Source: Chryseobacterium gleum
GTDB lineage: Bacteria > Bacteroidota > Bacteroidia > Flavobacteriales_D > Sanyastnellaceae
Reading direction: 5' to 3'
Assembly: GCA_945878635.1 (NCBI GenBank)
Contig: CAMCTV010000002.1
Coordinates: forward strand, 1-64,000
Length of the DNA stretch: 64,000 bases
The translations under genes and the position numbers were made by a program. Each line of letters begins with the position of its first letter. Within the stretch, counting starts at the first letter, position 1. Below, in pieces: positions 32,047-51,038 of the stretch. Under the pieces are notes generated by a model. The model saw only the letters and a list, made by a program, of their open reading frames with translations, searched no databases and was not told the DNA's origin.

Positions 32047-33951
32047 ATGAACGAGCTCCGTGATCACCCCAACTTATACCTGAGGCAACACGGCAACAAT
32101 CCCATTCATTGGAAAGAATGGGGTTCTGCTCAATGGGCAAATGCCATTGAGGACAAAAAACTAGTTATTGTTAGCATTGGATATAGCGCTTGTCACTGGT
32201 GTCATGTGATGGAAAAGGAATGTTTTGAAGATACTGATGTAGCGCAATACACCAATGCGCATTTCATCAGTATTAAAGTGGATCGCGAAAGCCGCCCTGA
32301 CATCGATCAAATTTACATGAATGCCTTGCACTTGATGGGGAAACCTGGTGGATGGCCGCTTAACTGTATCTGCTTGCCCAACGGCACACCCATATTTGGG
32401 GGTACTTATTTTCCAAAAAAAAAATGGCTTCAGGTCTTGTCTGAATTGCATCATCTGTATCAAACCCGCAAAGAAACCTTGGATTCTTTTGCGGATGAAA
32501 TGAAACAAGCCTTAAACCAATTCACATCGCATCATTCATTGCAGTCCACTCCCCAATTGGATCACGATAGCATTCAAGGATTCATTGCTGACCTAGATTT
32601 TGAATGGGGAGGCACATCCGGCTACCCTAAGTTTCCAATGCCGCCGCTCATCGCATCCATTTTGCAATATGGTACAAACCAGCAACACAAAGCTTCACTT
32701 CGCTGGTGTCAAATCACTTTAGAAAAAATCAAGTTTGGAGGGATTCATGATTTGATTGATGGTGGTATTTCACGTTACAGCGTAGATCACCGATGGCATG
32801 TTCCGCATTTTGAAAAAATGCTTTTTGACAACGCTCAACTGCTTTCCGTTTATGCCCAAGCACACCTGATGTTTCCACAAAATGAGTATGATCAAGTTAT
32901 GCTCGGAATCCATGAATGGCTGACAAATGAGATGAAACAAACATCAGGATTGATGTCCAGCACCATGGATGCTGATAGTGAGGGAGAGGAGGGCAAATAC
33001 TACGTTTTTAATAATGAAGAAATCAAAAAAACTTTTGAATTAAAAGACAAAAATTGGGAATCTGTTTTTGATTTTCTTCACCACAGTTATTGGGAAGAAG
33101 GTAAAATTGTACTCAGCGCCAAAGAATCATTCTCATTGAAGGATGGGGATTGGAAAACCATTCAGACTTCGCTTCAAAAAATTCGCGCAAATAAAGCACA
33201 ACCAATTACCGATCACAAGGTGATTACCTCATGGAATGCGCAAACAGTCGTTGCCTATTGTCAAGGCAGTGATGTCTTTGGCGATTGGATTAACCATGCC
33301 CAAGATTTATACTGCGCCATGGAGCAGAACCTAAAGATAAATGGGCAATGGAATCAGGGAAAAGAAGGAGAAAAGACAATCGCTCCATTGCTCTTTGATA
33401 CGTTGGCATGGGTGCAGAAGGCGTGTATTGAATTGTTCTTAAAAACAACAGATTGGAAATACATCCAAGAAGCCACTGATATTCACAACAGCGCCAAAAA
33501 TTTTCGGCAAGCATCTTCCCTGTATGCATTAAACGCTGAAGAAAACCTTTTGGCTAAAATCATTGAAATACAAGACAATGTAATTCCATCCAGCAATGCC
33601 ATTTGGGCAGAGAATATGTATTGGCTGAGCATCATAACTGGAGACCTCAGCTATCTTGATGAATGCACACAGATGATTCAATGTCTGGGACAAGATGCCA
33701 ATCAGATGGGCTATTACGCGCATTGGAATTTGGTTCTTCAATTGTTCCAGGCCAAAGCTGGAATTGTAGTTGCGAGTCAACCAGAATTGGATTGGCTGAA
33801 GAACAAAAAATGGCTGCACAAAACCGTTGTGCTGCATAAAAATGTAGAAAATTCGTTTCTGCAAGGTAAGTGGCATCCTCAAACCCAATATTCTCTTTGT
33901 ACATTAGCTACATGCTATCCCCCATTATTGAATTGCTCCGATATTGTATAA
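32047..33951 (+). CDS. DUF255 thioredoxin-fold protein (YyaL/SSP411 family)
   Basis: A 634-residue protein. The N-terminal thioredoxin-like domain has the signature SACHWCHVMEKECFED (CxxC at 49/52) followed by VDRESRPDIDQIYM and GGWPLNCICLPNGTPIFGGTYFP. The remainder resembles an (alpha/alpha)6 barrel of the N-acylglucosamine 2-epimerase type (GGISRYSVDHRWHVPHFEKMLFDNAQLLSVYA; DADSEGEEGKYY). The family is widespread but its biochemical role is not settled; a cellobiose-epimerase-like or redox function has been suggested for relatives. The start is ATG 32047; the in-frame TTG at 32038 lies inside glyA. It is embedded in the purA-glyA transcription unit. Confidence 0.9.
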   Translation: MNELRDHPNLYLRQHGNNPIHWKEWGSAQWANAIEDKKLVIVSIGYSACHWCHVMEKECFEDTDVAQYTNAHFISIKVDRESRPDIDQIYMNALHLMGKPGGWPLNCICLPNGTPIFGGTYFPKKKWLQVLSELHHLYQTRKETLDSFADEMKQALNQFTSHHSLQSTPQLDHDSIQGFIADLDFEWGGTSGYPKFPMPPLIASILQYGTNQQHKASLRWCQITLEKIKFGGIHDLIDGGISRYSVDHRWHVPHFEKMLFDNAQLLSVYAQAHLMFPQNEYDQVMLGIHEWLTNEMKQTSGLMSSTMDADSEGEEGKYYVFNNEEIKKTFELKDKNWESVFDFLHHSYWEEGKIVLSAKESFSLKDGDWKTIQTSLQKIRANKAQPITDHKVITSWNAQTVVAYCQGSDVFGDWINHAQDLYCAMEQNLKINGQWNQGKEGEKTIAPLLFDTLAWVQKACIELFLKTTDWKYIQEATDIHNSAKNFRQASSLYALNAEENLLAKIIEIQDNVIPSSNAIWAENMYWLSIITGDLSYLDECTQMIQCLGQDANQMGYYAHWNLVLQLFQAKAGIVVASQPELDWLKNKKWLHKTVVLHKNVENSFLQGKWHPQTQYSLCTLATCYPPLLNCSDIV

Positions 33952-34814
33952 TGCTCATCCTGCTGGGATTGGGCGCCACAATAGGATGTGCACAGATGTT
34001 AAACAACAAAGAAGGCAAAGCACTTGACAATGCCTTTCTATTCAATCGGTCATTTATTTGGGAGAATAAAATTGCTTCAATTACGGCCATTAAACAGATC
34101 AAACTTCCTGGTCGACCAATCAATGAGACCGAATGGAGAGAAATCATGACATTTAATTCCACAGGAATTTTGGAGCAAAAAATGCTCACCACACACGGCA
34201 CTTCTTTTCAGGATAGCAGTTCCATTTTGTTTAAACGAAATGATATCGGGCAATTGTTCAGCATAGAACAAAATAAAAAAACTGAAACCACCATCACCGA
34301 GATGACTTACGATAGCAATGGCAAAATCACAAGAGAAGACATCAAGCAGATTCTTCATTTGCAAGGTGAAGGCAGCCGAGAGATACTGGTGGAAAGCACA
34401 ACCTATGAATACAGTTTTCCCAAACCCAATATTGTTGTAAGAAACAACATCAACAATTACGGATTGGCCTATAGTTCGTTTACTACCATCCGCAACGATC
34501 AAGGATTTTTGATTCAGGAGCTGGAGAACTTCTTTGTAAGTCAACGTGAGATTACCACACTATATGAATACAATGAAAAAGGTTGGGTATCTAGAACAAC
34601 CCAGTCAGACAACAAATCAAACGAAAAAGAAGAAACTACATTTACCTATGACAACAAAGGCAACGTGATTTTTGCCAAGCACAGCATTAACAATCAACTT
34701 GTTGAAGAATTTGAAGTGCTGTACAATCAAGCCTCCATGATCAAAGCTATCTTGCATCAAGACATTGCCAGTCAAGCCATCACGATACACAAATACGAAT
34801 ACCAATTCCGATGA
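33912..34814 (+). CDS. Exported protein with YD-like repeats, function unknown
   Basis: About 300 residues. A hydrophobic start (RYCIMLILLGLGATIGCAQ) looks like a signal peptide. The mature part carries loosely repeated segments of the type MTYDSNGKITRE, LYEYNEKGWVSRTTQS and FTYDNKGNVIFAKH, which resemble YD/RHS-type or DUF4595-like beta repeats found in Bacteroidota surface proteins. No enzyme motif was seen. The start is uncertain: ATG 33912 gives a positive charge before the hydrophobic core, whereas ATG 33951 forms a TAATG overlap with the preceding stop but a very short signal. It overlaps the next gene by four bases. Confidence 0.75.
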   Translation: MLSPIIELLRYCIMLILLGLGATIGCAQMLNNKEGKALDNAFLFNRSFIWENKIASITAIKQIKLPGRPINETEWREIMTFNSTGILEQKMLTTHGTSFQDSSSILFKRNDIGQLFSIEQNKKTETTITEMTYDSNGKITREDIKQILHLQGEGSREILVESTTYEYSFPKPNIVVRNNINNYGLAYSSFTTIRNDQGFLIQELENFFVSQREITTLYEYNEKGWVSRTTQSDNKSNEKEETTFTYDNKGNVIFAKHSINNQLVEEFEVLYNQASMIKAILHQDIASQAITIHKYEYQFR

Positions 34815-35101
34815 AAAACATTTTCAAAATTCTTTTTCTATTCGCACTTGTTGCTGCTGCGTCTCATTGCACCGCGCAAAAAAGACCGCCCAAACAGGAC
34901 AACGTGGTTACCCCAGCTGATGGCGCCCAAAAAAGTGCCGAAAATAAAAACCGAAAGTGGGAAGAGTATGACACCAAGAAAAATCATCACCATGAAATTC
35001 AGGATAAGGCAACCAAAAAACGCATGAAGGAAAGCTTGAAAAAATCTAAAAATCACGGGTCACCGAATCGTGTTCCATGGTACAGAAAACTTTTTTGGTA
35101 G
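34811..35101 (+). CDS. Small basic exported protein, function unknown
   Basis: 96 residues with a signal peptide (MKNIFKILFLFALVAAASHCTAQ) and a short, very basic mature part including KKNHHHEIQDKATKKRMKESLKK. The Cys in SHC does not fit a lipobox (His at -1), so cleavage after TAQ is more likely than lipidation. The ATG overlaps the previous stop (ATGA), indicating co-translation with the YD-like protein. I recall similar short proteins with an IQDKATKKRMK-like core in other Bacteroidota but cannot name a function. Confidence 0.75.
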   Translation: MKNIFKILFLFALVAAASHCTAQKRPPKQDNVVTPADGAQKSAENKNRKWEEYDTKKNHHHEIQDKATKKRMKESLKKSKNHGSPNRVPWYRKLFW

Positions 35102-35138: not shown

Positions 35139-36695
35139 ATGAAAATTAAACACTTATGTCTTCTTGCCGTTTTGCATTTGCAATCGGAATTGATTATTGG
35201 TCAGATGAATTGGGCTGAAAATGTTGCCCCCATTTTATTTGATCATTGCACCAAATGCCACCATCCTGGTGGTATAGGACCGTCCAGTTTTATGACATCA
35301 GATGAGGCTTCCAATAATGCAGCCTCTATTCTTGGTGCCATCCTAGATGGTTATATGCCCCCTTGGCCAGCCAATCCCGATTATCGGCACTTTATCAATG
35401 AAAACGTTCTCACTGAAACAGAAAAAAACACCATTGAAAATTGGGTAATGAATGGAGCACCCAGTGGCAATATCGCCCTTGCTCCCACTGCGCCTACCTA
35501 CGACAATCAGACGCAATTGGCGCAAGTTGACTTTAGCGGAACCACCCCCATCAATACCAGTCAAGCCGTTACACATGATTATTACAGGACTTTTGTCATT
35601 CCATCCAACTATTCAGTGGATCAATTTATAGATGGAATTGAAATCATTCCAGGAAATAGTGAAATTGTGCACCACGTTGTCATTTATTACGACCCCACCA
35701 ATGAATGCCTTTCATTGGATGCTGCAGATGCTGAACCTGGATTCCTGACCAACGGCACTGGGGGAGGTCTCCCTGCCGCGGCTCATTTCGTTGGTGCGTG
35801 GGTTCCCGGAAAAGGCCCTCAAAATTTACCACAAGGCTTTGGTATACGAGCAGAAGCCAATGGATACTATTTGATTGAAATGCACTACCCTGCAGGAAGT
35901 GTGGGTCAACAGGACGAAACCATACTCAACATCAAACACTCCTCAAGCAGCAATCCGCGAGAAGCCTGGTACAATCCAATCATTACGCACGACCCTTCCA
36001 CCCTTGATGAGGCCGCATTGATCATTCCGGCCAATACTGAAAGAACATTTCATGCCACGTATAATGTACCCATCAACATATCGCTGATTGGCATCTTTCC
36101 ACACATGCATCTGATTGGTGAAAGCATCAAAAGTTTTTGCGTTAATGGAACTGATAGTATTCCATTGATAGATATTCCTCAATGGGATTTTGATTGGCAA
36201 TTGGGTTATGATTACACCCAACTGGTTAGACTGCCTGCTCAGTCTCAACTCAAGGCCGTTGCCACTTATGACAACACCATCAACAACCCCAACCAACCAG
36301 TAAATCCTCCCCAATTGGTTACAGCAGGGGAAGAGACGAATGACGAAATGATGGTAATTTTTTATCTTTATACTTACTGGATGCCTGGAGATGAGAACAT
36401 TGTTATTGATCCAAATACTGCCATTTCAAGCAATACCCATGCACCCAATCTGTGGCGGTTTTACCCCAATCCCACCCATAAAGACATTCAATGGACTTGC
36501 ATTGGACCGCAGTACAGAAAAGCACAATTTACTATTTCAGACATGCATGGAAGGATTTGTAAAAAAGAACAACAAATGGTTGCTGGCAGAATGGAATCTG
36601 GAAGTGTTGATTTGAGTGAACTAAAACCAGGAGTCTATTTCATTCAAGTGGTTTCTAACGAATACACCCACACAGAAAAAATAATTCTTGAATAA
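35139..36695 (+). CDS. Secreted cytochrome c - PHM-type copper monooxygenase fusion with T9SS sorting domain
   Basis: 518 residues. After a signal peptide (ending IIGQ, about 22) comes a mono-heme cytochrome c domain: CTKCH (37-41) with a likely distal Met73 in GYMPPWP. A copper type II, ascorbate-dependent monooxygenase-like module follows. Its candidate copper ligands match those of PHM/DBH: His178-His179 and His249 for one site; His322, His324 (PHMHLIG) and Met404 or 405 (NDEMMV) for the other. A T9SS type A domain starts at FYPNPTHKD (441). PHM-type enzymes hydroxylate C-H bonds with O2 and need two electrons; the heme domain could supply them. The substrate is unknown. The gene lies 37 bases after the small basic protein gene and ends directly against the convergent ruvC. 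Confidence 0.85.
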   Translation: MKIKHLCLLAVLHLQSELIIGQMNWAENVAPILFDHCTKCHHPGGIGPSSFMTSDEASNNAASILGAILDGYMPPWPANPDYRHFINENVLTETEKNTIENWVMNGAPSGNIALAPTAPTYDNQTQLAQVDFSGTTPINTSQAVTHDYYRTFVIPSNYSVDQFIDGIEIIPGNSEIVHHVVIYYDPTNECLSLDAADAEPGFLTNGTGGGLPAAAHFVGAWVPGKGPQNLPQGFGIRAEANGYYLIEMHYPAGSVGQQDETILNIKHSSSSNPREAWYNPIITHDPSTLDEAALIIPANTERTFHATYNVPINISLIGIFPHMHLIGESIKSFCVNGTDSIPLIDIPQWDFDWQLGYDYTQLVRLPAQSQLKAVATYDNTINNPNQPVNPPQLVTAGEETNDEMMVIFYLYTYWMPGDENIVIDPNTAISSNTHAPNLWRFYPNPTHKDIQWTCIGPQYRKAQFTISDMHGRICKKEQQMVAGRMESGSVDLSELKPGVYFIQVVSNEYTHTEKIILE

Positions 36696-43664: not shown

Positions 43665-46600
43665 CCCATTCAGTGTAAATCGAATAGCAATTCCAGAATT
43701 GATGTTGGTATTGTTGAAGGAATTGGAAATCTTGGGTTTGTTGAACTGGTGATCGTAGAAGAAACGCAAGGTCAACTTGTCACTAACAGCCATATCTGCA
43801 CTGGTCTTCAAACTCCACAAGGTCTGACCTGCAGTAATCTGATTTTGTTGCTCAACAATTTTGCGAATCATGGTCACATTATCCCGCATGGTCAAATCCG
43901 CACGCAAAGTCAAGGTTGTACTCTTTAACAACTTCATAGGGAACTTCTTTCCCTTGATTTTGGCAATTGGATTAGGAATGTCGGTGAACTTATAACCCGT
44001 CCCAATCACAAAACTATTGCTTCTGTTTTCCGTGACCTGATTATTGGCCAATCCCAAAGCAATGGTGCGGTCGCGCTTCATTTCCACTTTGATTTGTGGA
44101 TCATTGCTCTTTTTGGTCTTCACAGTCATATCAAATCCCAACATTGGTGACATGGACTCTGTAATGGTAACCGTGTTGATCTGCTTCTGTGCTATCCAGT
44201 TGGGCTGAGCGTTGGCATCCAACGCGGTGGGACGTCCCAACATGTCCTGCTCAAAATTCAAATTGGTTACATAACTCGCATTCACCGTTGACTTGTATTG
44301 GTGATTGATGGTGAATTGCTTAAAATACTTCTTCACGCTTTCCAATTTCGTTAATCCGTCATAACTCACTTTCCAGTTGGGTTGTGCTGACGTTTTGAAT
44401 GGATTTAATGAAACCTCACTGGTGCTTTTTCCGCTGTAGGCCGCTATAAATGCTGGAATAATAACATCTTGCGCTGTCCCTCCAAACCCTTGATAATAAC
44501 CGGCACTATCGACATCATTCAACTGATAGTTGATGGTATTCAATCTTCCAGAAATCTCTTGACGGTAGGCAATTAAATTCAAAAATGGGTCCGACATGTT
44601 TCCATTGCCCTTGTCATCTCTGGCAAAAGCTGTAGCCCAAGTGTTGATGGAGGCACTGAAGTTTCCAGTCTCCATAGGAGATTGGAACTGGTACTCCATA
44701 GAATCTGCAGAGTACCTGAAGAAACTGGTTAAGTTTCTTCCATCTTGACGATTGGCCGTCAATTCTATTTTCAAATACTTAATGGGCTCAATGGATGCCT
44801 TGGCGTTCCAGGTTGTACTTGATGTTTCTGTATATTGATTGTTCTGATAAGGAGAACCCACTACATAACCGCCATTGGCCATGTCCAATGCAAAATTACG
44901 ATCTGTCAAATCCCCTCGCCAATCGGTATTTTGCTGTCCCAAAACAAACCCAATGCCCGGTGCAGTAAATTGATTATTCAATCCCAATAATCCCGCCCGC
45001 TGGTTGTATCCGGGCAACATCATCCCTTCATTCTTGGTGTAACTCATATTGGCATTGCGCACCATCATTAAGAAGCGCAGTGCAACATCTGACCAAACAA
45101 TCGGCTCCTTCTTGTCCTTCTTATCCAGGTCCTTTCCAAACCCATCCTTGTTGTCCGGACTTTCCTTGTCTGCCTTCTTCTTGTCGTCCTTCTTCTTGCC
45201 TTGGTTGATCTCCTTCAACTTGGGAACCTTGTTGTACAACGTTTCAAAATTGGCCGTTGCATTAAAGTTCAACTGACGCGAATTCTGAATTTTATTGCCC
45301 AATGTATCCTGCGTGAACGGCGCACGATCCCAACGGAAGCTAGAACCATATTTGACATCCGAATTCACAAAATCAATCAATGGAAATTTGTCAAAAGGCA
45401 ACTTATAAGATGCATTGAATTGGTGGTTGTAAATCGTCGGCTCACCCATGCTCAAAATGTTTTGACGTACGGTATCCTTATAAGCCTCATACCAATCTTT
45501 ATCTTCTCTGTTTATTACACCGCGTGGCTCACGTATCAACGCTGTTGTAGACGCTGTCAAATCCATCTTGATGCTCTTGGTCAAATCATACTTGACATTG
45601 TAATTGCGGTTCCAACTCCAGTTCTTTTGCGCTTGTGTTTGAATCAACATGTCACTGTAGATACCCGATAACTCCAAAGTATTGTTCCGAATTCTACTCG
45701 TCTCATAGGAACGATTCATATCGGTATGGAATCCAACGGATTTGATACCTGGATAAAAGTTGAATTCCTTGATCCACTTCAAATAAGGCGAAGTTTTAAC
45801 CAATGGCAACTTGGCAAATGGTTTGATCTCCTTAGGTTTGTTGGTAAAGGCGTAATCAAAAGCTCCTGTGTATTGCTTGTTCAAACGCCAGTCGATATTG
45901 ATGTCGCGGAAGTAAATTTCATTGTAAGAATAACTCACAGAGAAATTATCGATGGCGTAAAATTTTGGCTTATCTCCCCCACCAGCAGCTGCTGCGGGCG
46001 CACCAGGCGCGGGTGGCGCAGCTCCACCTGCATCCTCCTTGGCTCCTTTTTTGGGTGCAATCTTTACGTTGGTCACGTTGATGCTTCGCCGGCGCGTCAT
46101 CGTCTGCGACTTTTGTTTCAATGGTTTTGAAAGATTGGGCAAATCATTCAATTCCAAATCCGGCTGCAAAGGACTGTAACGCGGGGTTGAAACATTTTCT
46201 GAATAACCCATGAACAAAGGCAATTGTACTCCCCAATTCTCTGGCATCAATTTGCCCATTTGAATGGTAGTACTGGCATCCACACCAGTCTTGGTCTCCT
46301 GTTGCCTTTGCTGTACTTTTTGTTCTACAGATCCCCACCCTGGCGTACTGATGTTTCCAGCAACATTGACTGTGGCCAAATCCGCCAGTTGTGCTGTCAT
46401 CCGTCCTACGGCAGCCCAACCAGACGTATTATCAAACTCTGAAAGACGCAACTCATTCACCCAAATGGTCGCACATTTGGCCAATCCATCATCGTTTTTG
46501 ACAAAACTATTTTTCTTGTCATCCGGATTGCGAACCCCAATCATCAATACCGTGACATTGGAGACATTGGGATTACCCTTTACTGAAATGCGCACATTCT

Positions 46601-49600
46601 CCGTAAGCATTTTTGAAAACTCTTGCAAAGCGCTGAATCCCGCAGGTCGATTGGCTTTCAGGTCTTGCAAATCTTTGATAAGAATGTCAAAGTTGTTTTC
46701 CTCTGGCCAGATATCGTTGTCATCATCCGTGAACCAAGGAGTCACAGACATGGGCATCTCATACTCGTAATAGTTTTGGTCAAAATCAGAACCCAAACGC
46801 ACAAACACTGTCAAATCTTTGTTCTTTAATGCACTTTCTACTCCCTTGGCTTCCATGTGGGCAAACATTCGTAAACGCTTGTACTGACGCATGTCAAAGG
46901 TTACATTTCGGTATGCGGCCTTGGCATCACCATCGTTCAAATTACAAACGGTCATGGACAATGATTGCTCATTCATGCTGCGCAAATTGGCCGAAGCTAC
47001 ATCCTGCTCGCGAATAATTCCCGGGGGCACGGTGTAAGGAACTGGCTCACGGTTTCCGTTCTCTTCAATGTTTACTGCAGCAATGTCAAACTCAGTGGGT
47101 TCATCGTCATTGGGCTCCAATTCTTGTGGTCCCAAAAGACTACTGTCAAATTTGCGCCACTCACCACGCACCAATTCCAATCGCGCAAAACGCAAAGTAA
47201 CTGGCTGCTCCCAACCTTTTAGGAACATACGAATATATCGGATGGAACGAAAATCTGGAATGTTGCCTATGCGCTTTTCAAACTCTTTGATGGGTACTTT
47301 GAATTGATACCACCTAATTTCTCTTTCCTCACCATCGGCCGTAGTTTTGGTCGTCACAAAACTGTCCGTTATGTAATTGTCACCAATGTTATTCTCGCCC
47401 AAATCACCGGGACGCAAGCTCACTTTGTACTGAAAGTAACTTTCTATTTGATTCAATGTAATGTCCTGATTGATGTCCTCCGTATTGGGAACTGTTGTTG
47501 CTGCTATGGGATAACCTTCTGGACTAGATGTATTGGAGTTGCCCTCATAACCATTGAATTGTTTGTAACGCTCAATGGTATTCAAGTTTTCTTGGTCACT
47601 CTGGCTGCCTCTGAAATAACGGAAATCATCTGCTGCTGGATCTTGTGCAATTTTTCCGTACGCATCTGCTGTCACATGCCCCTGAACAGATGACAACCAT
47701 TGCGAAAAAAACGTTTGCTCCCCACCTGATGTCAAACCATCAATACCGATGTCCTGCTGTGCATAAGATCCTGTTGTGTTGTCAAACGCATTGACAACAT
47801 TGAAAGTGGAAGGATTGGGATAAATGCCCCATGTCCCTTGAAGCGTGGGCAATGGATTATTGTCTGTTGGGTAACCATTCTCAAATGACAACTGAGAATC
47901 GTTCAATACATCTTCTGATACATTACCCAAGTTGAAATACAAGTCACCACCATTGTCATTGGGAGAATCCTCATGAAAAGGATCCATCAACCAGAATTGA
48001 ATAAACTGAACGTTACTCATTTCAAAATCCGTGGTGGTCAATGCGCGCTGAATACCTCCCCAACGGGTTTCTGGATCATTCAGAAATCCATCTTCACTCA
48101 ATCCGGATGAATAGCCTGGAACGCCATCAGGGTCGTCAAAGTTGTAAGGTCCACGTTCATTGGGATAGTAAGTCAAATCAAGTGTAGCAATGTTGGGAGG
48201 TGTTCCTGGAGGCAATTGGCGGTTGGGGAAAACCTCAGACTCCAAAACTTCTCGCATGCGGTGATCACTCTGCATGGCTGCATCCACATTGGGAGGCGTC
48301 AAAGCATTGGATCGATAAAACAATGGATCGATAACATACCAACTCAAACGTGCACGGTTGTAATTGTAAATCAAACTGTCTTCGATATTTCCTTCAGGAA
48401 ACAAGCCTTGTTGCAGTTTAGGAGTACTGGCCAAAAACCATTGGTTGATGGTGCGCAAATCAATGATGCTTTGGCTTCCTTCAAAGTCGTCAATATAGGA
48501 ATTACCGATCTTAGAAATGGCCTTGCTGTGACCTGGGAAAAGCTTGGCAGCTTCTCCATTAAAGGTGATGGTCGACTTGGCTTTGGTTTTAATAAAAGGC
48601 AAGCGATCAATCATCTCTGTGATGAAAGGAATTTCTTCTTGGTAATTGAAATCCGCTCCCAGCACCCAGTTGTTCACTGGCTCATCACCTATGTTGACTT
48701 TCTGCGTCAATGGCCTTTCCCGCAGGTTCATCACCGTAGATCCAACGGTCAATTTATCACTGAACTTGTAATCAAAACGACTACCGATCATGGTCTTGAA
48801 TTGCATGTTGAACAATGAATTGCTCTCCACAGAAACCTTGATGGGATTGCCACTGTTCATCACCCCTTCATTGATGATTTTTACACGACCCAAATTGTAG
48901 TCCACTGTATAGTCCTGCCCCTCTACCAATTTAATGCTCCCCGATGTGACACTCACCGATCCTTGCGGAATGTTCATCGCATTCAAAGAGATGTCAGAAC
49001 CAGAAGCACTTTGATATTGTCCTTTAATTCTAAATCGATTCAACTGTGGAAAGTTAATCTGCGCAGAAGTTTTTGTACTATCATACAACGGTTGAAAAAC
49101 CACTTGGCTAATCATTTGCTGTGCCGTTGATGTATTTCCGAGGCCTGCAATAATCTCATTGGACAAATGTTGGCCAAAGGGTTCCACATGCGGAAAAAAT
49201 ATCCTACCTGTTTGAGCATCAATCAAACCACCTTGCGTGGCAGCATTGGGAACAAAGTCAAAGAAGGCATCGGGATAAGGCATTTGTTGATTATCAATGC
49301 GGTCCAAGTCCAATACCTGCAGCAGCAATTTTCCAGACAAGGGTTCGCGCTGAATGCTGTTCATGTTCACTCCCGTAGACGGGTTGTTGTACCAAACGTC
49401 CAGACGGAAATTCTCTGGAGAAACCCCAAAAGCGCCCAAGTTGTAAACGTTCTTCATCATGTTATCCCACAATGGAGCGGGATCGCCGTTGCTCAACTTG
49501 ACCATGGTGATGGACGACTTCAACATTTTTAGCACCAACGCATTGGGCGCCGCAACTCCATCTTGAGAGAATGTTCCCACTTGATAGGTCTGTCCGTTCT

Positions 49601-51038
49601 GGGTGTATTCAAAGGCAACACCCAGAACTTCCGCGTTGTTGAGGGCTTGCTTCAACGAGATAAAACCCAATCGGGCATTGTAGGTAAATTCAGAACTTGT
49701 CAATTTTCTTGCATTTCCGACGCGCTCATAATGCACCCCTTGTTTCAAACCCAGTCCCAAAGCCTGAATGGCAGGATTGGCATTTGTGAATCCCAGAATT
49801 TCTGGAGCACCCATCATCACATCATACAACGCGTTGTTGTCATTGTCCGGATTGGGAATCTGGTTGGGATTCATCAAACCCTGGAAGGCATAATCCGTTG
49901 ACATGTAATTTTGACTTTCTCCCAAATCAGAGAAGGTCAAAATATTTCTTACATCCTGCGTATTGGCTTGTTGGTTCACTACCCAAACTTCTATCCTCGT
50001 AATGTTGGCACCACTATTCACCACCGGCAAAGTCTCCATGGCCTTGTCATAACTGTTTCTAAAGAAACCAGATAAGAAGTAGTGACGATTCGCTTCGTAA
50101 TTGTCAGCGGCGATATCAAACTGCTGGGTCTGTGCACCTCCTTGAACGGTGATTTCCTTGCGCTCCCCTTTTTGCTGAGAAAGAACTGTGGTGTTTTTTA
50201 ACTTGCCCCATTGGGTTTCAATCTTGGCGCCAAACAAGCTAGAGCTCCCTTGTATCAAGGATCCTGAAAGAGGCATCTGAACGGTACCCAATTCAATTTT
50301 CTTTACAATTTGATCCTCATCACCGGTGTATCCCAACTTCATTTGATTCTCAAAATCAAACTGGCTCTCCGTGTTGTAATTGACATTGAGCTTCATTCGG
50401 GTTCCAATGTTACCCGTTACATTGAGCTGAATTTTTTGATCAAAATTGAAGGTGGTTACCTTTCGTTGGCGTTCCGGAATCCTTGGATTGTCCACCTTGG
50501 ACATGTTCATTCCAAAGGTCAATTCAGCGCTACCCTGCGGTCGAATCTCAATTTCATTGGATCCAAAAATATTTTCAAATGCTTCAGATTGAATTTTAAA
50601 AACAGGAGCAAACTCTCTCTTGGCTTGGTCATCCTCTTCTACCAGCTCTTTCCAATAAGCTGTTACATTGTCTTTTAATTGAAAATCCATGAACTCCTCA
50701 CGGGTCATTTGCGTGGCACTTCTGAAATCAATTCTATCACCTATCTTCTGTGAAACCTCATACATGCCCGTCACAGGATTGTACTCCACATGGTACTTGA
50801 TGTTTTTTGGAAGTGGAATGGCTATTCCTGAAGGATTGGGGGTAGGGTTGATTGGATCTTGATTGGGCCAAATGGGCGGTGGTGTTGCAGTATCCGCAAC
50901 AGCCGCGGTTACTGAATTGCGTCTGATATAATGAACAGCGTTTTCAATGGTGGTAACAGACAGGGCTACCCAAGAGGAAACCGCCGTGATAACAGCAATA
51001 AAAACCCAATGAACGATATGCCCAAAACTACGCCTCAC
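43662..51038 (-). CDS. sprA: SprA, outer-membrane translocon of the type IX secretion system
   Basis: A 2458-residue protein, the expected size (about 2400) for SprA/Sov, the giant single-chain barrel through which T9SS cargo crosses the outer membrane. The N-terminus has a hydrophobic signal segment (VHWVFIAVITAVSSWVALSV), then the recognisable SprA motifs PLPKNIKYHVEYNPVTGMYEV, GMNMSKVDNPRIPERQRK, SLFGAKIETQWGKL, KAISKIGNSYIDDFEGS and DNFSVSYSYNEIYFRDINIDW. Two low-complexity inserts occur: an Ala/Pro/Gly-rich linker (about 45970-46060) and a Lys/Asp-rich loop (about 45110-45215). The start is GTG 51038, immediately after the ruvA stop in the same frame. The eight full-length T9SS cargo genes nearby encode natural clients. 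Confidence 0.96.
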   Translation of the reverse strand: MRRSFGHIVHWVFIAVITAVSSWVALSVTTIENAVHYIRRNSVTAAVADTATPPPIWPNQDPINPTPNPSGIAIPLPKNIKYHVEYNPVTGMYEVSQKIGDRIDFRSATQMTREEFMDFQLKDNVTAYWKELVEEDDQAKREFAPVFKIQSEAFENIFGSNEIEIRPQGSAELTFGMNMSKVDNPRIPERQRKVTTFNFDQKIQLNVTGNIGTRMKLNVNYNTESQFDFENQMKLGYTGDEDQIVKKIELGTVQMPLSGSLIQGSSSLFGAKIETQWGKLKNTTVLSQQKGERKEITVQGGAQTQQFDIAADNYEANRHYFLSGFFRNSYDKAMETLPVVNSGANITRIEVWVVNQQANTQDVRNILTFSDLGESQNYMSTDYAFQGLMNPNQIPNPDNDNNALYDVMMGAPEILGFTNANPAIQALGLGLKQGVHYERVGNARKLTSSEFTYNARLGFISLKQALNNAEVLGVAFEYTQNGQTYQVGTFSQDGVAAPNALVLKMLKSSITMVKLSNGDPAPLWDNMMKNVYNLGAFGVSPENFRLDVWYNNPSTGVNMNSIQREPLSGKLLLQVLDLDRIDNQQMPYPDAFFDFVPNAATQGGLIDAQTGRIFFPHVEPFGQHLSNEIIAGLGNTSTAQQMISQVVFQPLYDSTKTSAQINFPQLNRFRIKGQYQSASGSDISLNAMNIPQGSVSVTSGSIKLVEGQDYTVDYNLGRVKIINEGVMNSGNPIKVSVESNSLFNMQFKTMIGSRFDYKFSDKLTVGSTVMNLRERPLTQKVNIGDEPVNNWVLGADFNYQEEIPFITEMIDRLPFIKTKAKSTITFNGEAAKLFPGHSKAISKIGNSYIDDFEGSQSIIDLRTINQWFLASTPKLQQGLFPEGNIEDSLIYNYNRARLSWYVIDPLFYRSNALTPPNVDAAMQSDHRMREVLESEVFPNRQLPPGTPPNIATLDLTYYPNERGPYNFDDPDGVPGYSSGLSEDGFLNDPETRWGGIQRALTTTDFEMSNVQFIQFWLMDPFHEDSPNDNGGDLYFNLGNVSEDVLNDSQLSFENGYPTDNNPLPTLQGTWGIYPNPSTFNVVNAFDNTTGSYAQQDIGIDGLTSGGEQTFFSQWLSSVQGHVTADAYGKIAQDPAADDFRYFRGSQSDQENLNTIERYKQFNGYEGNSNTSSPEGYPIAATTVPNTEDINQDITLNQIESYFQYKVSLRPGDLGENNIGDNYITDSFVTTKTTADGEEREIRWYQFKVPIKEFEKRIGNIPDFRSIRYIRMFLKGWEQPVTLRFARLELVRGEWRKFDSSLLGPQELEPNDDEPTEFDIAAVNIEENGNREPVPYTVPPGIIREQDVASANLRSMNEQSLSMTVCNLNDGDAKAAYRNVTFDMRQYKRLRMFAHMEAKGVESALKNKDLTVFVRLGSDFDQNYYEYEMPMSVTPWFTDDDNDIWPEENNFDILIKDLQDLKANRPAGFSALQEFSKMLTENVRISVKGNPNVSNVTVLMIGVRNPDDKKNSFVKNDDGLAKCATIWVNELRLSEFDNTSGWAAVGRMTAQLADLATVNVAGNISTPGWGSVEQKVQQRQQETKTGVDASTTIQMGKLMPENWGVQLPLFMGYSENVSTPRYSPLQPDLELNDLPNLSKPLKQKSQTMTRRRSINVTNVKIAPKKGAKEDAGGAAPPAPGAPAAAAGGGDKPKFYAIDNFSVSYSYNEIYFRDINIDWRLNKQYTGAFDYAFTNKPKEIKPFAKLPLVKTSPYLKWIKEFNFYPGIKSVGFHTDMNRSYETSRIRNNTLELSGIYSDMLIQTQAQKNWSWNRNYNVKYDLTKSIKMDLTASTTALIREPRGVINREDKDWYEAYKDTVRQNILSMGEPTIYNHQFNASYKLPFDKFPLIDFVNSDVKYGSSFRWDRAPFTQDTLGNKIQNSRQLNFNATANFETLYNKVPKLKEINQGKKKDDKKKADKESPDNKDGFGKDLDKKDKKEPIVWSDVALRFLMMVRNANMSYTKNEGMMLPGYNQRAGLLGLNNQFTAPGIGFVLGQQNTDWRGDLTDRNFALDMANGGYVVGSPYQNNQYTETSSTTWNAKASIEPIKYLKIELTANRQDGRNLTSFFRYSADSMEYQFQSPMETGNFSASINTWATAFARDDKGNGNMSDPFLNLIAYRQEISGRLNTINYQLNDVDSAGYYQGFGGTAQDVIIPAFIAAYSGKSTSEVSLNPFKTSAQPNWKVSYDGLTKLESVKKYFKQFTINHQYKSTVNASYVTNLNFEQDMLGRPTALDANAQPNWIAQKQINTVTITESMSPMLGFDMTVKTKKSNDPQIKVEMKRDRTIALGLANNQVTENRSNSFVIGTGYKFTDIPNPIAKIKGKKFPMKLLKSTTLTLRADLTMRDNVTMIRKIVEQQNQITAGQTLWSLKTSADMAVSDKLTLRFFYDHQFNKPKISNSFNNTNINSGIAIRFTLNG

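Follow-up and report, generated by a model that had tools for sequence, protein, structure and literature searches.

Monooxygenases of the PHM/DBH superfamily are copper type II ascorbate-dependent enzymes, of which PHM and DBH are the textbook ascorbate enzymes; in animals, PHM finishes neuropeptides and DBH makes noradrenaline. Chemistry of the PHM type requires two electrons per turnover, one being held on each copper, and animal PHM and DBH obtain these electrons from ascorbate. In published work on the double jelly-roll fold, the PHM family is placed in eukaryotes (PMC8812541). A small c-type cytochrome domain (CjX183) has been described to reduce bacterial LPMOs in place of ascorbate, with less H2O2 than is obtained with ascorbate (PMC8981238), and for the principle of a cytochrome-fed copper monooxygenase this pair is the closest studied precedent.

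In the window analysed here, a stretch of DNA of 64,000 nucleotides from a genome of flavobacterial type (2.35 Mb, 170 contigs), one gene was found to encode haem c, a PHM-type copper domain and a T9SS tail on a single chain (Table 1). This arrangement had been proposed in an earlier note made from the sequence alone, and it was borne out by Pfam and NCBIfam matches, by fold and by motif conservation. An alignment of relatives showed the protein to be conserved from Met1 onward in close species. With Pfam run on the query alone, the tail was matched as Por_Secre_tail (1.8e-10, residues 442-516); Cu2_monooxygen (2e-5, 158-250), Cytochrome_CBB3 (0.0024, 35-78) and Cu2_monoox_C (0.01, 313-411) were matched under Pfam's cut-off. 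As the single-sequence scores for the two copper halves and the cytochrome c fell under the cut-offs, these domains were tested with relatives.

Table 1. Positions in the window of the monooxygenase gene, its domains and ligands, and of the SprA gene
Feature	Position	Strand	Basis or remark
Whole gene: signal peptide, cytochrome c, PHM/DBH-type copper monooxygenase, T9SS type A sorting domain	35139..36695	+	518 aa; ORF, Pfam, NCBIfam
Signal peptide, residues 1-22	35139..35204	+	Cleavage site approximate; sequence, helix 4-18 in model
Cytochrome c domain, residues 23-112	35205..35474	+	Cytochrome_CBB3, profile and model matches
Haem attachment motif C37-T-K-C40-H41	35247..35261	+	82/82 untruncated homologues
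Distal haem ligand Met73 in MPPW	35355..35363	+	82/83 rows
PHM/DBH-type double jelly-roll copper domain, residues 130-425	35526..36413	+	Foldseek, VIA, profile to rat PHM
CuH ligands H178 H179 (PHM H107 H108)	35670..35675	+	86/86, aligned to PHM
CuH ligand H249 (PHM H172)	35883..35885	+	86/86, aligned to PHM
CuM ligands H322-M-H324 (PHM H242, H244)	36102..36110	+	86/86, aligned to PHM
CuM ligand Met404 in DEM (PHM M314)	36348..36350	+	86/86, aligned to PHM
T9SS type A C-terminal sorting domain, residues 442-516	36462..36686	+	PF18962 1.8e-10, TIGR04183 1.4e-10
SprA, T9SS outer-membrane translocon	43671..50819	-	TIGR04189, 2431.8 bits; same window as the monooxygenase

Once relatives were included, the copper-domain match was, by profile comparison, far beyond chance. 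Cu2_monoox_C was matched by 14 of 17 relatives (best 7e-12), and a family profile of the core matched rat PHM (2.2e-19) in an alignment that covers each of the six copper ligands, and DBH (2.3e-15); a phmmer search of the PDB with the query sequence alone returned nothing useful, and matches were given by the family profile alone. In the alignment of the profile with PHM, VHH was paired with VHH, (Q)xHY with LQVHY, HMH with HTH and DEM with DEMC, by which the ligands are equated with PHM H107, H108 and H172 and with H242, H244 and M314. An AlphaFold2 model of the query was obtained with a pLDDT of 80 and a pTM of 0.73, the latter leaving open the arrangement of the domains relative to each other. 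For model residues 128-418, PHM was the best PDB match (Foldseek, 5.3e-13). Using VIA, the model was aligned to PHM over 256 residues (Z 22.4, 2.7 A), well above unrelated rows, and to DBH with a Z of 19.9, and the tail of the model was found to align to solved T9SS CTDs (Z 9-10.5).

All six copper ligands were kept in 86 of 86 aligned rows, these being 85 homologous ORFs and the query, which is also one of the loci, so that the independent sequences are slightly fewer. Loss of the copper ligands with retention of the fold, which the earlier note had named as evidence against its reading, was looked for in the orthologues and none was found. By predicted fold and ligands the protein belongs to the PHM/DBH superfamily, without being PHM proper.

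The cytochrome c domain is class I-like, as judged from its CxxCH motif and distal Met. The C-C-H of this motif was found in each of the 82 rows reaching that far and the distal Met in 82 of 83, with the spacing of 36 residues from first Cys to distal Met recurring in 83 of 90 counted pairs. Rows without the haem motif were mostly cut by contig or locus ends, with one odd row per divergent group (read by eye). When 17 rows were aligned, C37, C40, H41, M73, H178, H179, H249, H322, H324 and M404 stood in invariant columns; the residues singled out beforehand (CTKCH, distal Met, HH, H, HxH, M) belong to the positions that do not vary in the family. The haem-domain profile weakly matched CcoP and cytochromes c6. 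Folded alone, the domain gave four helices (pLDDT 81), for which the top Foldseek matches were all cytochromes c (OmcF, cytochrome c6), although weak (E about 0.01). Against three close species, dN/dS was low in the haem domain (0.013-0.024) and in the PHM domain (0.021-0.033), with 0.05-0.06 for the whole gene, which shows that purifying selection acts strongly on each of the two domains.

The gene was present in seven of seven sampled genomes of the genus, and some match was found in 40 of 60 relatives, part of these being to the T9SS tail only. With the tail left out, the copper core was matched at 1e-5 in 34 of 395 Bacteroidota genomes; among Myxococcota, about half of the sampled genomes (72 of 141) matched Cu2_monoox_C (PF03712), with 71 of 141 over Pfam's cut-off, and three genomes that were inspected held 7, 11 and 13 core matches. 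The homologue scan took one genome per species, and the 17 loci came from Flavobacteriales, Saprospiraceae, Chitinophagales, Neomarinimicrobiota and Myxococcota/Deltaproteobacteria. A search of the plasmid collection found no relatives. From these sequence matches, the pairing of haem c with the copper core is common in two bacterial phyla.

Weak core matches in other families were found to constitute a second, divergent Bacteroidota subfamily (L069, L137-L141). Its copper core again possesses SHH, H, HxH and DEM, and its haem c differs from that of the main family, with CxxCH, CxxxCH or CxxxxCH followed by MPLG; the motifs CATAGCH (CxxxxCH) of L137 and CTQACH (CxxxCH) of L139 are unusual. Using hhalign, haem domains from three sources (the main family, a second Myxococcota branch and the second subfamily) were found to be related (99.2, 96.3 and 94.6% probability), which suggests homology of the three, though small cytochromes c often look alike. 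Variation around the core was also seen by eye: a Bacteroidota ORF (L068, genome G175) appears to carry a thioredoxin- or peroxiredoxin-like domain before haem c and copper core, and L106 a TPR-like C-terminal extension after the core. In a Myxococcota branch, L156, L157, L162, L166 and L174 have an extra ~150-200 residues C-terminal of the copper core.

Thirty PF03712 loci of Myxococcota were fetched, and CxxCH was found before the core in 26; one was cut off and three had none (L145-L147). The idea that haem and copper motifs are always kept together therefore stands for nearly all bacterial relatives (82/82 and 86/86) and fails for these three haem-less proteins, which rule out a haem that is always present. 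L145-L147 are probably lipoproteins. The animal-based Pfam model matched these three best (about 1e-31, versus 1e-12 to 1e-19 for haem forms), and the best PDB match of L147 was human DBH (1.4e-29); by these scores they may be bacterial proteins closely related to animal PHM and DBH. In a tree of 54 cores, L145-L147, rat PHM and human DBH formed one clade (99/95). It is situated in a group of 14 rows (99/99), the remaining nine of which are haem carriers, and a quicker tree of 129 rows that had rat PHM as its only animal row agreed with this. The 54-core tree is unrooted and contains two animal rows and few phyla; as the animal rows are long branches and fragments from printed PDB alignments, their grouping with the haem-less forms is taken as a lead only.

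On the unrooted tree this clade represents one change, the direction of which depends on the root: it reads as haem loss with the divergent haem-carrying subfamily as outgroup, and as haem gain if the root falls on the haem-less branch. It may be, and we put this forward tentatively and with some doubt, that the haem c-fused form is ancestral, and that animal PHM and DBH derive from a bacterial cytochrome-fed enzyme from which haem was lost once, with ascorbate then taking over. This reading draws on the position of the clade (99/95) beside haem carriers and on the apparent homology of the haem domains of the three branches.

Regarding export, both a C-terminal sorting domain and the T9SS are present, so that the protein is predicted from its sequence to be exported as a type A substrate. 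The secretion by T9SS that had been suggested earlier is consistent with the tail of the query (TIGR04183) and with SprA in the window; the tail itself proved to be no part of the conserved module. It is variable among relatives, many of which in Bacteroidota end near residue 430 without it, and those of Myxococcota mostly resemble lipoproteins, a lipobox-like motif preceding the haem in 36 of 57 Myxococcota rows (about two thirds, by a crude pattern count). The conserved unit is thus an extracytoplasmic pair of haem c and copper core, with the means of delivery varying. For haem attachment, the genome encodes a Cytochrom_C_asm protein (haem-lyase type); a few other small c-type cytochromes are also encoded. 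The gene neighbourhood is kept only within the genus and is of a housekeeping nature (glyA-like, DUF255/DsbH, ruvC, a glycosyltransferase and a permease), and its comparison found no operon partner, electron donor or substrate clue adjoining the gene. Two small genes (314 and 96 aa; 33870-35101 of the window) lie directly upstream on the same strand, are kept in the genus and are possibly co-transcribed with the monooxygenase gene. Promoter and terminator scans performed no better than shuffles.

R240, N316 and Y318 of PHM, which bind the peptide carboxylate, correspond to F320, V406 and F408 of the query. Across the family, R was found at the first of these positions in 0 of 86 rows, N at the second in 2 of 86 and Y at the third in 29 of 86. 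Since these residues are not kept, hydroxylation of peptidylglycine is unlikely and peptide amidation is disfavoured, in correction of the earlier note, which had listed a peptide among candidate substrates. A family-specific stretch, IPQWDFDWQ, in which W349, F351, W353 and Q354 are nearly invariant, replaces a shorter PQ...QAFY in PHM; as speculation, it may line the active site or act as a relay. The many paralogues of Myxococcota suggest several substrates.

These results make it probable that the protein is a copper monooxygenase of the PHM/DBH superfamily that is secreted and carries a tethered haem, acting as an O2-dependent surface hydroxylase with haem c as electron entry. In its favour are the kept ligands (86/86) and haem motif (82/82), the fold (Z 22.4), the repeated pairing in a divergent subfamily, the selection on both domains, the presence in the genome of SprA and a Cytochrom_C_asm protein and the precedent of the cytochrome-reduced LPMOs. 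Given the need for two electrons and a tethered His/Met haem, the haem is the obvious point of entry, and the covalent haem is probably a built-in electron supply that replaces vitamin C. The protein would be exported by Sec, haem c would be attached at CTKCH in the periplasm by the cytochrome c maturation system (His41/Met73 ligation), copper would occupy CuH (H178, H179, H249) and CuM (H322, H324, M404), and in this species the T9SS would take the protein to the surface of the cell. Single electrons from an envelope or outside donor would then enter at the tethered haem c and pass to CuH and on to CuM, where activation of O2 would lead to C-H hydroxylation of a small substrate other than peptidylglycine. 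Within this scheme we infer the metal content, the path and direction of the electrons, the hydroxylation and its product. Against the scheme speaks that a surface protein lies far from the inner-membrane respiratory chain, which makes the electron donor a true weak point, and that neither an operon partner nor a donor was found beside the gene.

The copper site might instead be an active monooxygenase fed by soluble reductants (ascorbate, thiols), with haem c serving in docking, in peroxide or O2 sensing or in the disposal of surplus electrons. That the core works without a fused haem is indicated by the haem-less bacterial members with intact ligands and by animal PHM and DBH, and the existence of L145-L147, which also counts against the main explanation, means that the copper chemistry does not depend on haem. 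However, nearly every bacterial member has a haem partner, even where the subfamilies have diverged, and the His/Met pair that is kept is typical of electron-transfer cytochromes, making this explanation unlikely. Electrons could also flow in reverse, from an oxidising copper core (a copper, thiol or phenol oxidase, or a producer of H2O2) through the haem to an acceptor. Such a flow would fit the loss of the PHM substrate residues and the fact that single-haem His/Met cytochromes often accept electrons, but it appears quite improbable given that every ligand of the two PHM copper sites, the CuM Met among them, is kept, a set that known members use for O2 activation with external electrons. A non-catalytic surface protein that binds copper or haem for capture or storage would agree with a secreted protein without known substrate or partner and with the many copies in Myxococcota; an invariant two-site geometry together with an invariant haem Met exceeds the needs of metal binding, and we consider such a role very improbable.

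Whatever its substrates, the haem-tethered monooxygenase represents, from its sequences, a sizeable and strongly conserved bacterial family that sets itself apart from known members of the superfamily by covalent haem. The PHM/DBH core is common in bacteria, with up to 7-13 copies per genome and nearly always with such a haem. As a one-chain system, it could allow electron delivery to CuH and CuM to be followed by haem spectroscopy; the family would also supply new extracellular hydroxylases and offers a testable account of the origin of animal PHM and DBH. A search of open papers, with subscription papers and preprints outside its range, found no description of a cytochrome-PHM fusion, and an earlier mention is possible.

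Compared with PHM (PF01082/PF03712; PDB 1phm, 1sdw, 3mic), the query shares the double jelly-roll fold and the six aligned copper ligands, and it differs in its fused haem c and T9SS tail and in having no equivalents of R240, N316 and Y318; as it has only seven cysteines, two of them haem ligands, the disulphide set of PHM cannot be present. DBH (PDB 4zel) is similar in fold (Z 19.9), copper ligands and profile match (2.3e-15), but possesses an N-terminal DOMON domain and no haem c, and its closest bacterial relatives are the haem-less forms (L147, 1.4e-29). These haem-less Myxococcota proteins have the copper core and its ligands in common with the query, without the cytochrome domain. The system of Cellvibrio Cbp2D/CjX183 and AA10 LPMOs resembles it in principle, a copper monooxygenase outside the cell being reduced by a c-type cytochrome domain (PMC8981238), whereas the LPMO copper fold is unrelated and holds a single copper, and donor and LPMO are carried on separate chains.
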